Assembly: GCF_001625445.1 (NCBI RefSeq)
Contig: NZ_LWHG01000011.1
Coordinates: forward strand, 496,001-560,000
Source: Haladaptatus sp. R4
GTDB lineage: Archaea > Halobacteriota > Halobacteria > Halobacteriales > Haladaptataceae
Direction of reading: 5' to 3'
DNA length: 64,000 nucleotides
A model generated the notes under the pieces. The model did no database searches. It was given only the letters and a program-made list of their open reading frames with translations, and had not been told where the DNA came from. This document shows, one piece after another, positions 4,112-9,852 of the stretch. Within the stretch, counting starts at the first letter, position 1. Every line of letters starts with the position of its first letter. The translations under genes were made by a program, and so were the position numbers.

Positions 4112-4531
4112 TCACTGGAGTTGGTTCTCGAACAGCAACCCGTCTCCACCGTCGGCGTAGTATTCCGATTCGCGCCCGACGAGTTCGAACCCCATCGACT
4201 CGTAGAGCGACCGAGCGCCCTCGTTTTCCTCGTGAACCGTGAGCGAGACGCGAGTACAACCGCGGTCACGGGCCGAATCGAGCACGGTTTGGAGAAGCCG
4301 TCTCGCCCGACCCTCCCTGCGGTGTATCGGTTCCACGACGAGTTCGGCGATGTACGCATCGGTGCCGACGAGGCAGAGGACGTAGCCGACTGGTTCGTCG
4401 TCAGCAGTCGAGACGAAGACGGAACCCGGTTCGGAAATCGTCGTTTCGAGGAGTTTCGGCGTCGGTTCGGAAAGCCACGACCGAACCTCCCGGAGTCGGG
4501 GAAGGTCGTCGGGCGTCGCCGGTCGGATCAC
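4112..4531 (-). CDS. GNAT family N-acetyltransferase
   Basis: A 139-residue single-domain GCN5-related acetyltransferase. The acetyl-CoA motif appears as IHRREGRARRLLQTVLDSAR near residue 70, followed by VSLTVHEENEGARSLYESMGF, typical of RimI-like members, and the protein ends soon after. The GTG start at 4531 overlaps the DUF92 stop by four bases (GTGA), so translation is probably coupled. Its substrate cannot be told from sequence; RimI-like N-terminal protein acetylation is possible. It converges on dnaG. Confidence 0.85.
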   Translation of the reverse strand: MIRPATPDDLPRLREVRSWLSEPTPKLLETTISEPGSVFVSTADDEPVGYVLCLVGTDAYIAELVVEPIHRREGRARRLLQTVLDSARDRGCTRVSLTVHEENEGARSLYESMGFELVGRESEYYADGGDGLLFENQLQ

Positions 4532-5844
4532 GTCGCTAGGCCCACCGCCAACGCCAACCCGGCACCGATGAGTCCCCCGGCAAGCGTTGCGAGGAAGTTG
4601 ACGCTCTGATTGCCGAGTCCCTCTCCCTCCACGGTCGCACCGAGGAGGCTATCCACCGTCATGCCGCCGATTCCGGCCAGCGCGATGACGCCGCCGCCGA
4701 GCGGACCGATGGAGCCGAAGAGGGAGACGGCGATGAGGGCGACGATACACGACCCGGTCGCTCCGGCCAGTTCGCCCTGCCACGTCACGCCGCCGTCGGT
4801 GCCGGGGTCGACCCGCCGCCACGTCGTGATGAGTCGGGGGTTGTCGAACACGCCGCCGATTTCGCTCGACAGGGTGTCGCTCATGGCGGCCGCGATACTT
4901 CCCGCGAACGCGTAGAGGAAGACGCTTTTCGTGACCGGCAGCCAGTCGCTGGCGGCGAACGCGAGTACCGCGACCAGCGCCACCGCGGCGTTGCCGAGGA
5001 CGTTACCGCCGCCGCGAGCGCCTTCGTTGGCCTCCGCGACGCCGTTTTTACGTTTCTGTTCGTATTTGAACTTCGTGGACAGTCCCCCCAGCGCGAAGAA
5101 GGAGATGAGGACGGCGAACCACGGGTAGCCCCCGAGGACGATGGTGAGCAACGCGAGGAGGATGCCGGTGAGCATGCCGGTGACGGACGCCGTGTCGAGC
5201 GCCCACGAGACGTAGCCGAAGCCGACCGTGATGGCGATGGCGAGGATGATGTCCCACTTCGTCACCGTCATCGTGAGGTCGGTGAACAGCCACAGCAGGA
5301 CCGCGACCGAAAACATCACTACCGGATCGTCCCGCTCGAAGAGCACCGAGCGGAGCAACCCCGCCAATAGCGCACCGCTCGCTGCGAGAAAAACCAGTTC
5401 CGGAACCTTCGGGCCGATTGGGTTCCCCTGAATACCCCGGACGATCATTTGCGCGAAAACAGCGGCGACGAAGCCGCCGGTGGTGAACCCGGCGGTCGCG
5501 GCGATGGTCGCGCTGCTCCGCGTTCGAACGACCTGTTCCGTGAGGTTCCCGTACGCGAGCAGACAGACCGCCGCGACGAAGACGCTCGTCGGCAACCCGA
5601 CGAGCATGACGAGCATGGCGAGCGCGGCAGTTGCAAAGGAGAACGCGGCCAATCCGCGCAGGCGTCCCTCGTTCCGGTCGCTCGGCCGCGCGAAGAGGTC
5701 GAACAACGTCCCTTCGTCGAGGACGAGCGCGACTGCACCGATTGCGGCGAACAACGCCGCTACGGCCGCCACCAGCACCGACGCGGCGAGCGAGAGCGTC
5801 GCAACCCCTGCGAACGCCGCCGCCCGCCGAATGCTCGAAGTCAC
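4528..5844 (-). CDS. DUF92 family integral membrane protein, possible isoprenoid-phosphate kinase
   Basis: A 438-residue protein with about ten hydrophobic segments and the DUF92 signatures SDTLSSEIG (near residue 325), GVTWQGELAG and GGMTVDSLLGATVEG near the C-terminus. DUF92 includes plant VTE6, a phytyl-phosphate kinase, so an archaeal role in phosphorylating an isoprenoid phosphate is reasonable but not shown here. The gene is divergent, with a 96-nt gap, from the divergent cis-prenyltransferase subunit at 5941, and it is translationally coupled to the GNAT gene downstream. Family assignment is secure; activity is inference. Confidence 0.85.
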   Translation of the reverse strand: MTSSIRRAAAFAGVATLSLAASVLVAAVAALFAAIGAVALVLDEGTLFDLFARPSDRNEGRLRGLAAFSFATAALAMLVMLVGLPTSVFVAAVCLLAYGNLTEQVVRTRSSATIAATAGFTTGGFVAAVFAQMIVRGIQGNPIGPKVPELVFLAASGALLAGLLRSVLFERDDPVVMFSVAVLLWLFTDLTMTVTKWDIILAIAITVGFGYVSWALDTASVTGMLTGILLALLTIVLGGYPWFAVLISFFALGGLSTKFKYEQKRKNGVAEANEGARGGGNVLGNAAVALVAVLAFAASDWLPVTKSVFLYAFAGSIAAAMSDTLSSEIGGVFDNPRLITTWRRVDPGTDGGVTWQGELAGATGSCIVALIAVSLFGSIGPLGGGVIALAGIGGMTVDSLLGATVEGEGLGNQSVNFLATLAGGLIGAGLALAVGLAT

Positions 5845-5940: not shown

Positions 5941-6549
5941 GTGGGACTCTACGACCAGTACCTCACGGCCCGCGTTCGCCGTCAGAACGCCGACCCGCCG
6001 AGCGATATCGCCGTCGTCATCACGGAACGCGACTTGCTGGAACAAGGCGCGTACGAAACGCTCGAATCGTTCCTCCAGTGGGCGTTCGACTACGGCGCGG
6101 AACGCATCACGGTCTACGTGAGCGTGCTGGATTCCGGCGCAGTACCGACCCTTCAACGCGAACTCGAAAACGTCCGCGCACCGCGAGAAATCGCCGTCCG
6201 CGGCCCCGAAGACCTCACCCCCGCCGACGCGCCGATCCAAGTGAGCATCGGCCTCGGCGGCAAACACGAATTCGCGGAAGCAGTGCGTGCGGTCGCGGAG
6301 GACGTGGAGGCCGGGACGGTCTCGGCCGACGAGGTCGGCGAGGAGGAGATCGAATCCCGATTGGTGTTCCCGGCCGACCCCGACCTCGTCATCAAAACCG
6401 GCGCGGAACGCCTTTCGGACTTCATGATCTGGCAGTCGGTGTACTCCGAACTGTACTTCACCGACGTGAACTGGCGCGACTTCCGCAAGCGTGACTACCT
6501 GCGGGCGATTCTGGATTACAAGAACCGACAGCGGCGGTTCGGCCGGTAG
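5941..6549 (+). CDS. cis-prenyltransferase family subunit lacking the catalytic DGNR motif
   Basis: A 202-residue member of the undecaprenyl diphosphate synthase fold. The N-terminal region that should carry HxxxxDGNRR instead reads IAVVITERDLLEQGAYETL, so the diphosphate-binding Asp motif is gone. The C-terminus is very well kept: KTGAERLSDFMIWQSVYSE, then LYFTDVNW, and a final RQRRFGR that contains the RxG motif. This is the pattern of the non-catalytic partner in heteromeric enzymes (NgBR/Nus1 type). The canonical subunit lies 2.3 kb away on the other strand (8836-9759). The start is GTG. It probably acts with that subunit to make the dolichol-type carrier used in glycosylation. Confidence 0.85.
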   Translation: MGLYDQYLTARVRRQNADPPSDIAVVITERDLLEQGAYETLESFLQWAFDYGAERITVYVSVLDSGAVPTLQRELENVRAPREIAVRGPEDLTPADAPIQVSIGLGGKHEFAEAVRAVAEDVEAGTVSADEVGEEEIESRLVFPADPDLVIKTGAERLSDFMIWQSVYSELYFTDVNWRDFRKRDYLRAILDYKNRQRRFGR

Positions 6550-6648
6550 GAATCCCGGTTTTGCGAAGCGTTCCGACTCACATCCCGAGAACGGTTTTTC
6601 GAACGACGATATCCGAAATCTTTTGTTCTCTATTTAACATAATCGCCT

Positions 6649-7233
6649 ATGGACGACACACGAGCAAGACGACTCGCGCGGTATCTGTCGGTATTGTTGG
6701 TTCTGCTCGGCGCGGTCTTCGTCGGGTTCAGCGTCCTCACCGACGATAGTGTGGACATCGTTCTCGGCGTCGTCGTCGTCCTCTCCGGCGTCATTTCCCT
6801 TCGGTTCTTCCGGGTTGCCGACTCCGATATCGAGTTCGATCTCACCGAGTTCCCCTCGTTCGTCGTGAACGTCTTCCAGTTGGTACTGGTGCTCGTGGTC
6901 TTCGTACTTCTCGCCTACTTGATAGACGATCTGGAGAACGTCGTCCGACTGTTCGACACCGGAGTCCCATCGTTGACGTTCGTCGCCGTCGTTGGAATCC
7001 TCATCGGCCTCGTGCTCGGCGGGGCCGTTCCCGTTCTCATGCAACGAATCGACGCTATCGGGAAGGAGATGAGCGATTCCCGTTCCGCTCGAACCGTCGG
7101 CTTCTCGTTCACGTTCGGGACGTTCGTTCTCTTACTCGTTCTGCAACCCGCCGCGAGCACGCTGTATGGCATCGCGTACACCGTGAGCCGAATCGGCGTT
7201 CTCGTCGGGACGTACGCCCTGCCACGATTGTAA
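6649..7233 (+). CDS. small integral membrane protein, function unknown
   Basis: A 194-residue protein starting MDDTRARRLARYLSVLLVLL, with about five or six hydrophobic helices; a short charged stretch (MQRIDAIGKEMSDSRSART) separates the C-terminal helices. No family motif is recognised. It follows the cis-prenyltransferase-like gene by 99 nt on the same strand and could be cotranscribed, but the AT-rich gap before it suggests its own promoter. Haloarchaeal codon use and an intact frame support a real gene. Confidence 0.7.
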   Translation: MDDTRARRLARYLSVLLVLLGAVFVGFSVLTDDSVDIVLGVVVVLSGVISLRFFRVADSDIEFDLTEFPSFVVNVFQLVLVLVVFVLLAYLIDDLENVVRLFDTGVPSLTFVAVVGILIGLVLGGAVPVLMQRIDAIGKEMSDSRSARTVGFSFTFGTFVLLLVLQPAASTLYGIAYTVSRIGVLVGTYALPRL

Positions 7234-7423
7234 CCGCCGATTCGTGTTCGTCCCGGTGTCGTGTTCGGATTCGTGAACGAACCGTTCCCACGGTAGGCAC
7301 CGTGTGACTCCGCGGCGCATCACGCTTCGACTTCGAAGGGACCGATTACTCCCTGAAACGCGGTTGTAGACTTCCTCTACCCCCGCAACCGTGAAATAGC
7401 GCACCGCTGTGACTCCGACTGGG

Positions 7424-8794
7424 ATGGGAACGCCGAGCGACAGGACTACGAGACGGTCGTACCTCCGAGCGGCCGGTGTCGCCCTCGCGGCGACGATTGC
7501 GGGATGTGACACGAACTCCGGGCGGAGCAAGGAGTCGGTCGTCGGTCCATATCGCGACCGGTTCGAGGAAGTCGTCGACGTCGGTTCGTTGGACGTGGAC
7601 GACACGGGTACCGAACCCGTCGATGCGGCGGTCAGTCGGGCGCTACGGGACGGAAGATTGCTTTACTTCCCGCCCGGAACATACCGACTTTCGAACCTCG
7701 ATTGCTCCCGTCACTCGAACTGTGGACTCGTCGGAAACGACGCCACGTTCCGCGTTCCGTCGGGGAACCAGGGGAACTGGCTGTACGGTGAACCGGTTCG
7801 GAACTTCGTGCTCGACGGGTTCACCTTCGACTACACGAAGCCCGATGCCTCCCCGGTCGTCGCGTTCTCGGTCGCCGGTTCCCGGAACGTCCTGCGAAAC
7901 CTTCGGTTCGAGGGTGACCACGGAACGTCCTCCCGGAGCGGTCTCGAACTGGAGGTGCCCGAGCGGTCGGCGTCCCTGCTCGTCGAACGGGTTCACATGC
8001 GAGGTGGATCACGGGGCGGAAACGCGATTTTCACGCACACGGGAGAGGGTTCGCTACGGTTCGTCGATTGTCAGGTCGAACACTGGACCGAAGGCCTCTA
8101 CGCGTCCCCCCACTCCGGCCCGCTGCTCGTTCGGGGCGGGACGTACGCGAACAACGGCATCGACCAGATACGCATCGGTGGGGGAACGAGCGGTGCGCGC
8201 GTCGAAAACGCGACCGTCCGAATCGATAACCCGCGGAATCCGGAGGCGAAACCGAACATGCGCGGGATTTGGATGGAGGAGGGAACGAACGCGGAAATCG
8301 ACAACTGTACCGTCGAGATTACGGACTTGAGTGGAACGTACAGTTCCGGCGGTGTCGTCGTGGGAAAGCAGTTCGGCACCGCACGAATCACGAACACCAC
8401 GATTCAGACCAACTACAGCGTCCCGGCCGTCAACGTCCGCTCTCCGGCCACCGAATACGACCCGGCCACGATGCCGAGCATGCAAGCACTGCCATCGAAC
8501 CACGGCGTCGCCTGTGAGAACCTCTCGATTTACGGCGCGGCCCCGGACGGAACCGCCATTCTGCTCACTGGACGGGACGGCTGTCGGTTTTCGGGGGTTT
8601 CCGTCCAACACCACTTCGGCAGTCGGGACGGAATCACGATAGAGAACGGCCGACGGACGACGCTCAACGACGTTCGTTTCCGCGTGAGCGGCACGCCGAT
8701 AGTGGCCGACTCGACGCCGATAACGAGGAACGTCGAGACGGGCGGAATCGGATCGCTCTCGAAGTTGGGCGATTCATTGCTCGATACCCTGTAA
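7424..8794 (+). CDS. exported right-handed beta-helix (pectate lyase-like) lipoprotein
   Basis: The N-terminus reads TTRRSYLRAAGVALAAT followed by IAGCDT: a twin-arginine signal with a lipobox Cys, so the protein is probably Tat-exported and lipid-anchored. The body has repeated strands rich in N, G, V and T (NVLRNLRFEGDHGT, VENATVRIDNP, AEIDNCTVEITD, ARITNTTIQTN), typical of parallel beta-helix polysaccharide-binding or cleaving proteins. No catalytic residues can be assigned. A GTG at 7409 could add five residues; the ATG at 7424 is preferred. It resembles the beta-helix protein at 53034 in the central GLYAS...RGIW region. Confidence 0.8.
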   Translation: MGTPSDRTTRRSYLRAAGVALAATIAGCDTNSGRSKESVVGPYRDRFEEVVDVGSLDVDDTGTEPVDAAVSRALRDGRLLYFPPGTYRLSNLDCSRHSNCGLVGNDATFRVPSGNQGNWLYGEPVRNFVLDGFTFDYTKPDASPVVAFSVAGSRNVLRNLRFEGDHGTSSRSGLELEVPERSASLLVERVHMRGGSRGGNAIFTHTGEGSLRFVDCQVEHWTEGLYASPHSGPLLVRGGTYANNGIDQIRIGGGTSGARVENATVRIDNPRNPEAKPNMRGIWMEEGTNAEIDNCTVEITDLSGTYSSGGVVVGKQFGTARITNTTIQTNYSVPAVNVRSPATEYDPATMPSMQALPSNHGVACENLSIYGAAPDGTAILLTGRDGCRFSGVSVQHHFGSRDGITIENGRRTTLNDVRFRVSGTPIVADSTPITRNVETGGIGSLSKLGDSLLDTL

Positions 8795-8835
8795 CGGTGT
8801 CCGAATCGAAAAACGGGTCGTCAGAAATCGTCCGT

Positions 8836-9759
8836 CTACTCTGTCGTTCGTCGCTCTTCCCCGCTCTCGATCTCCTCCATCGAAACGCTGTCGGGAACGT
8901 ACTCCTTGAACTTCCGGAGGACCGAGCGCGCTTCGTCCAGTTCGACACCGCCGACGGCGCGCACGAGCGCGAGCGCGCGCTGGACTTTCGCCTGCCGGAA
9001 CGACTGTTCGCGGGATTCGTACGTTCGGACCGCGCGCAGGAAGTCGATCTTCGAGAATTCGGGCCAGTACGGCGTACAGAAGAAGACGGCCGCCTCGTTA
9101 CCGTTGGCGTGCCACGGGAGGAAGTTGCTGGTTCGCTCGTCCCCGCCGGTTCGGATGATGAGGTCAACGTCGCGGAGCGGACGGTCGTAGAGTCTGGACT
9201 CGATGGTTTCGACGGAGATGTCGTCGGGGTCGAGGGTCCCCGATTCGACTTCGTGGGCCACGTCGCGGGCCGCACGAAGGAGTTCGTTCCGGCCGCCGTA
9301 CGCCAGCGCGATGTTGAGGACGAAGTTGTCGTACTCTCCGGTTCGTCGCTCGGCGTAGTCGATGGCCTCCCTGACGCGCTCGGGGAGTCGTGGAACGTCT
9401 CCGATGGCGCGGATGCAGACGCCGCTGTCGTGAACGCGCTCGGCGTCGGCGAACTCGTACAGTTTGTCCTCAAGCAGGTCGAACAAGGACTCGTTCTCCT
9501 GTTCGGGCCGCTCGAAGTTCTCGGTGGAGAACGTGTACAGCGTCAGTTCCTCGACACCGATGTCGTCACACCAGTCGAGGACGCGCTCGGTCGTCTTCGC
9601 CCCTTCTCGATGACCGTCCGACGCCTCGTCGCCCTGCTTGCTGGCGTAGCGCCTGTTGCCGTCCTGAATGACCGCCACGTGCGTCGGCGCACCGGAAACG
9701 CTGCGTTGTAACTGCCGTTCGTACGCCGTTTCCAACTGTCGCCGAAGCCGCGTCAACAT
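8836..9759 (-). CDS. uppS: cis-prenyltransferase, catalytic subunit (UppS/dehydrodolichyl diphosphate synthase family)
   Basis: Chain-elongating cis-prenyltransferase that condenses isopentenyl diphosphate to make the long polyprenyl diphosphate glycan carrier. It has the catalytic motif HVAVIQDGNRRYA near residue 30, LTLYTFSTENF, YGGRNELLRAARD and RTGGDERTSNFLPW. The usual C-terminal block is eroded: HANGNEAAVFFCTPYWPEF replaces the common sequence and there is no RRFG, which the partner at 5941-6549 retains. The C-terminal tail is longer than bacterial UppS. I use the ATG at 9759 (MLTRLRRQLE); an in-frame ATG at 9777 adds six residues. It converges on the beta-helix lipoprotein gene. Confidence 0.9.
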   Translation of the reverse strand: MLTRLRRQLETAYERQLQRSVSGAPTHVAVIQDGNRRYASKQGDEASDGHREGAKTTERVLDWCDDIGVEELTLYTFSTENFERPEQENESLFDLLEDKLYEFADAERVHDSGVCIRAIGDVPRLPERVREAIDYAERRTGEYDNFVLNIALAYGGRNELLRAARDVAHEVESGTLDPDDISVETIESRLYDRPLRDVDLIIRTGGDERTSNFLPWHANGNEAAVFFCTPYWPEFSKIDFLRAVRTYESREQSFRQAKVQRALALVRAVGGVELDEARSVLRKFKEYVPDSVSMEEIESGEERRTTE

Positions 9760-9852
9760 CGTCTTGTTCGTTTCCACTCACCCGACGGGTATCAGCCTTG
9801 TCCTCTTGGGGTCGTGCGGGCTGTTCACTCATCTCATTGGCAGTTGCATAGC

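Follow-up and report, generated by a model that had tools for sequence, protein, structure and literature searches.

Two genes in a stretch of Haladaptatus sp. R4 DNA raise the question of whether haloarchaea make the precursor of their glycan carrier with an enzyme assembled from two different proteins, and if so, how often in the history of the family such a division of labor has arisen. Each gene encodes a relative of the cis-prenyltransferases, and each lacks the motif that the other keeps. A sequence-only reading of this DNA proposed that the two proteins form a heteromer, and that interpretation is supported by the analysis described here. The two proteins are very probably the subunits of a single heteromeric cis-prenyltransferase, which makes the glycan-carrier precursor and arose through a split that happened once, with the eukaryotic split probably a separate one. 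The window (the whole stretch of DNA analysed, 64,000 nucleotides) contains these relevant features, given with the evidence for each:

4528 to 5844, minus strand: DUF92 membrane protein, of a cytidylyltransferase/dolichol-kinase-like family (PF01940, 2.1e-56)
5941 to 6549, plus strand: predicted non-catalytic partner subunit, 202 aa (PF01255, AlphaFold, VIA-align)
6022 to 6033, plus strand: TERD, in place of the DGNR of active enzymes (translation)
6532 to 6543, plus strand: RRFG, the RxG motif at the C-terminus of the partner (translation)
8836 to 9777, minus strand: predicted catalytic cis-prenyltransferase subunit (PF01255, residue table, AlphaFold, Foldseek)
9649 to 9663, minus strand: DGNRR catalytic motif, residues 39-43 counted from GTG 9777 (translation)

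The catalytic subunit is 313 aa long if translation starts at GTG 9777 and 307 aa if it starts at ATG 9759. Its translation contains DGNRR and all other catalytic residues and has no RxG: REQSFRQAK stands at the position of RERRFGG in homodimeric enzymes. The earlier description of the 8836-9759 protein as having DGNRR without a C-terminal RRFG thus stands, with one correction: it left the strand unstated, and the gene lies on the minus strand (the plus strand of 8836-9759 does not encode this protein). The PF01255 match covers profile positions 1-218 with 235.8 bits (cut-off 27), and VIA-align places the protein within the cis-prenyltransferase fold (Z 30.8). The AlphaFold model (pLDDT 91.5) carries extra C-terminal helices, and its top Foldseek matches are chains of human DHDDS, over about 300 aligned columns and with E down to 3e-23.

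The partner gene has a GTG start, and its translation agrees with the sequence-only reading: TERDL replaces DGNRR, the TGAERLSDF...LYFTDVNW segments are kept, and the C-terminus reads RRFGR, with R199 and G201 as the arginine and glycine of RxG. PF01255 matches only the C-terminal half (profile positions 116-219; 98.1 bits, cut-off 27). NCBIfam uppS (TIGR00055) was considered as an identifier for this protein and rejected at 87.3 bits against a cut-off of 109.55. The AlphaFold model (pLDDT 90.0) opens with a short helix (3-14) and shows a cis-prenyltransferase fold whose active site has been lost. VIA-align superposes it on Bacillus subtilis UppS (Z 17.2, rmsd 2.5-2.6, 186-187 residues) and on human NgBR 7pay_B (Z 15.6, rmsd 3.9, 178 residues). 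A profile built from the short proteins also matches NgBR by sequence (E ~1e-10, positions 14-201). The predicted models therefore match DHDDS for the catalytic subunit, and the cis-prenyltransferases and NgBR for the partner. There is one difference from the human protein: while NgBR has an N-terminal transmembrane region, inspection of the 202-aa archaeal partner found none of that type, and its soluble domain begins at the start of the chain (MGLYDQYLTARVRRQNADPP...).

The reciprocal loss extends far beyond this one genome. An alignment was made of 109 catalytic and 106 short sequences together with 14 Asgard enzymes, the UppS of E. coli and A. baumannii, and human DHDDS. All 109 catalytic subunits retain D26, G27, N28, R30, S71, N74, R77, Y145, R194, R200 and S202 (E. 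coli numbering), and the five residues of DGNRR are each 100% conserved among them. At the RxG positions of these same proteins, arginine is found in 4% and the most frequent states do not include glycine. The short proteins present the opposite picture. Their D26 column holds T in 67% of the 106 sequences, with D not among the commonest states, V replaces S71 in 67%, a gap stands at R77 in 86% and K replaces R194 in 80%; R200 and S202 are retained in about 70%. Their RxG motif is preserved (arginine 98%, glycine 100%) and forms the C-terminal end of every one of the 106, within the C-terminal segment, containing E213 and RxG, that is the most conserved part of the protein. One catalytic protein (G352), the best by profile coverage (1-219), was considered as an exception that keeps RxG and was rejected: it ends in RKRQEGV, a remnant. 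Given how regularly the pattern recurs in 109 and 106 homologues, its appearance in the window is not a matter of chance.

The two kinds of gene also occur together throughout the group. In the source assembly (4.9 Mb, 34 contigs, about 96% complete) there are exactly two PF01255 matches. The sequence-only reading had named a third gene carrying both motifs as a finding that would count against it, and the genome holds no such gene; neither window protein, nor any other protein in the genome, combines DGNRR and RxG on a single chain in the manner of homodimeric UppS. Across the class, presumably Halobacteria, 291 of 292 genomes have at least two PF01255 genes, and the short protein finds a match in all 292. 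The two types can be told apart by their matches: full-length but ending before the RxG positions for the catalytic type, as opposed to a short match to the C-terminal half that runs to the last position for the non-catalytic type. When genes were listed one by one for at least one representative of each of 77 genera, every sampled genus of the class (77/77) had one catalytic and one non-catalytic type. In the wider phylum, presumably Halobacteriota, nearly all of 157 genomes have two PF01255 genes, and outside the class 40 of 40 genomes, from 18 families, have one gene of each kind. Departures are few. Two genomes of one family (f18) have no cis-prenyltransferase of any type, a few genomes have more catalytic than partner copies, and in one genome (G072) the partner is present and no catalytic gene was detected; this is perhaps an assembly gap, as the assembly is in 120 contigs and other members of the genus have the gene. 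The co-occurrence survey that the earlier reading had suggested thus found both gene types class-wide and phylum-wide, so that its phrase “lineage-wide split” was right and even an understatement.

How might two such proteins work together? In the proposed mechanism, the 8836-9777 protein would bind the allylic primer, Mg2+ and IPP and perform the chemistry, and the 5941-6549 protein, which appears to keep the fold without a working active site, would contribute its RRFG tail, reaching across the interface to cap the catalytic subunit's DGNRR site. The product would be a polyprenyl diphosphate, the precursor of a dolichol-type glycan carrier. We infer this physical assembly, the action of RRFG in trans, the mutual dependence of the subunits and the identity of the product; closure over the DGNRR site in particular is suggested because the reciprocal losses are what an arrangement like DHDDS-NgBR predicts. 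The eukaryotic counterparts are human DHDDS-NgBR and yeast Rer2/Srt1-Nus1, and the human pair, like the archaeal one, consists of a catalytic subunit without RxG and a non-catalytic subunit (NgBR) with a C-terminal RxG. The RxG tail of human NgBR completes the DHDDS active site: L291 and G292 coordinate the phosphate through their main-chain nitrogens, with R290 positioned between the two substrate sites (PMC7573591). Bacterial homodimeric UppS and the Asgard enzymes share family, fold and catalytic residues with the archaeal pair but have both motifs on one chain, where the archaeal pair has them on two proteins.

A heteromer of this kind has been reported in one archaeon. In Methanosarcina mazei, a heteromeric enzyme built from MM_0618 and MM_1083 yields C45-50 products (Emi et al., 2019, cited via PMC8131916) and is described there as the likely source of the glycosyl carrier lipid. 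Like the window pair, MM_0618 and MM_1083 are two cis-prenyltransferase paralogues thought to make the carrier. A Methanosarcina-like genome (G401) has an orthologue of a further enzyme, MM_0014/MA1831, plus one gene of each window type; by elimination, the window genes would therefore correspond to MM_0618/MM_1083, as a pair only. The likeness that the sequence-only reading saw to DHDDS-NgBR and to a methanogen heteromer is borne out, as the residue anatomy matches both.

MM_0014 itself is a reason for caution. It is homodimeric and active without RxG (PMC8131916), and DHDDS alone forms homodimers of weak activity (PMC7573591), so loss of RxG is no proof that a catalytic subunit depends on a partner. 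Both observations would fit a catalytic protein that functions as an RxG-less homodimer, with the RRFG protein serving as an optional activator or membrane tether and not as an obligate subunit. We regard this as improbable: the partner is kept in essentially all sampled genomes, with RxG 98-100% conserved, and a dispensable activator would occasionally be lost. In addition, the products of MM_0014 are shorter (C25-40), and it is considered unlikely to be the principal carrier synthase (PMC8131916).

The surroundings of the genes bear on a second alternative. In the window the pair is not adjacent, being separated by two unrelated genes (6649-7233 and 7409-8794). Among 76 pairs whose two genes lie on the same contig within a single retrieved region, 74 have a tail-to-tail (convergent) orientation, and in 32 of these 74 the open frames are less than 100 bases apart. 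Neither intervening gene was retained as part of the system: a homologue of the membrane gene at 6649-7233 lies near the partner gene in 0 of 69 halobacterial loci, and the gene at 7409-8794 matches beta-helix proteins only. The steadier neighbor is the DUF92 gene, which is divergent from the partner gene in the window and has a homologue within 3 kb of it in 65 of the 69 loci. A 2015 publication linked DUF92 to uppS and suggested a kinase reaction in the making of isoprenoids (PMC5898192), and the DUF92 protein could possibly act at a later step of carrier synthesis. The same proximity might instead mean that the short protein has retired from prenyl transfer and taken up a different role, for instance as a DUF92 partner, making no contact with the catalytic subunit. 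This is hard to credit. The short protein is best conserved in the C-terminal segment where E213 and RxG lie, a region that known enzymes use for dimerisation and in the active site, and the RxG motif is exactly what the catalytic subunits lack. Two subunits of one enzyme remain the better account of both proteins.

When did the split occur? The short proteins form one clade with support of 100/99, on 109 columns only, and the catalytic subunits form another (99/93). Because each kind forms a single clade, these sequences indicate that the split most likely took place as a single event before the sampled families diverged. It probably proceeded by duplication followed by reciprocal loss, once, before the phylum diversified. 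The portion of Lombard (2016) consulted describes distant euryarchaeal paralogues in the family and mentions no subunit split there (PMC5088576).

The relation to eukaryotes was approached through Asgard sequences, reached via a Baldrarchaeota genome, with human DHDDS as the one eukaryotic member of the trees. Matches were found in 74 of 79 Asgard genomes, nearly always as one gene across the whole profile, and all 30 Asgard sequences inspected carry DGNRR and RxG in one chain. Human DHDDS clusters with these enzymes (98/85). As the Asgard enzymes inspected are single-chain and DHDDS groups with them, the eukaryotic split was probably separate from the archaeal one, which suggests that the likeness to DHDDS-NgBR is functional and the product of two splits. 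The alternative, which concerns origin and leaves function unaffected, is that a single ancestral heteromer gave rise to both the archaeal and the eukaryotic ones, which would make them true relatives. Archaeal and human catalytic subunits do share extra C-terminal helices, and a tree constrained to join DHDDS, a long branch, with the archaeal catalytic clade was disfavoured yet not rejected by the AU test (p-AU 0.064). Against the placement of DHDDS and the 30 of 30 single-chain Asgard sequences with both motifs, we consider a common origin unlikely. The broader proposition, that separate catalytic and RxG-donating subunits arose at least twice (before the archaeal phylum diversified and in eukaryotes) from Asgard-like single-chain enzymes, and not as an adaptation to long chains, is favored with some reserve.

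Chain length is where these findings touch the wider understanding of the family. Heteromeric cis-prenyltransferases have been described as long-chain enzymes (PMC7839719, PMC7573591), and the DHDDS-NgBR type makes long-chain products while archaeal carriers are medium-chain. The dolichol phosphates of Haloferax volcanii are C55 and C60 (PMC3827465), compared with C45-50 for the products reported for the M. mazei heteromer. If the enzyme is as we infer, haloarchaea fall outside the rule that heteromeric means long-chain, because their carriers are C55-60; and if the split reading is true, the heteromer would not be a long-chain adaptation. A search limited to openly accessible papers found none on a two-subunit haloarchaeal enzyme, nor any defining the carrier synthase of haloarchaeal N-glycosylation. 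The kind of enzyme is already known from M. mazei; what is new, and well supported, is its phylum-wide spread and its age. What had been reported as a heteromer in a single methanogen would be the standard state across an archaeal phylum. Both subunits of a candidate carrier synthase for haloarchaeal N-glycosylation can now be named, and the proposal is testable in Haloferax, where HVO_2318 of H. volcanii may be one of the two genes. For the family as a whole, the archaeal pair would be a second example, probably of independent origin, for studying what led a two-site homodimer to give way to a heterodimer with a single active site.

Two further genes stand next to the subunit genes in the window:
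4528-5844 (-), a DUF92 (PF01940) protein gene, divergent neighbour of the partner gene
6649-7233 (+), a membrane protein gene, between the two subunit genes

A DUF92 homologue is present near the partner gene in 65 of the 69 halobacterial loci. The DUF92 protein may supply a kinase-type step that is still missing from the archaeal pathway to dolichol phosphate, a role that a 2015 paper proposed in general terms (PMC5898192). The membrane protein has no Pfam match, and no homologue of it was found near the partner gene at any of the halobacterial loci (0/69); its gene is an insertion that separates the two subunit genes in the Haladaptatus sp. R4 lineage.

Four genomes (G068, G105, G148 and G226) carry one partner but two or three catalytic subunits each, and therefore a single partner may serve several catalytic subunits. 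Genome G002 carries, besides the usual pair, a third, diverged cis-prenyltransferase (L139:3914-5779) with DGHRR and the C-terminus LRRNEGR. No cis-prenyltransferase was detectable in G298 and G306 (family f18, same phylum; both genomes about 91% complete), so these may use another carrier lipid, or the genomes may be incomplete. Separately, actin genes with 53-93% identity to human actin occur on contigs of bacterial genome bins (L203-L208, L210-L214); these genes are probably eukaryotic contamination.

Partner subunits themselves can be modified or strongly diverged:
L130:3781-4530, partner with an inserted acidic stretch (genus g7)
L155:2886-3377, L163:2357-2860, L124:3299-4336 and L126:3139-3657, strongly diverged short partners (families f20 and f11)

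The acidic insert (roughly 20 residues) lies on the N-terminal side of the VGLGGK segment; it is probably shared by partners of other g7 genomes, and would account for the partner match falling into two pieces in many genomes of this genus. The diverged partners retain the E213 region (E. coli UppS numbering) and the RxG tail and hardly anything else, and a minimal partner could be sought through them.
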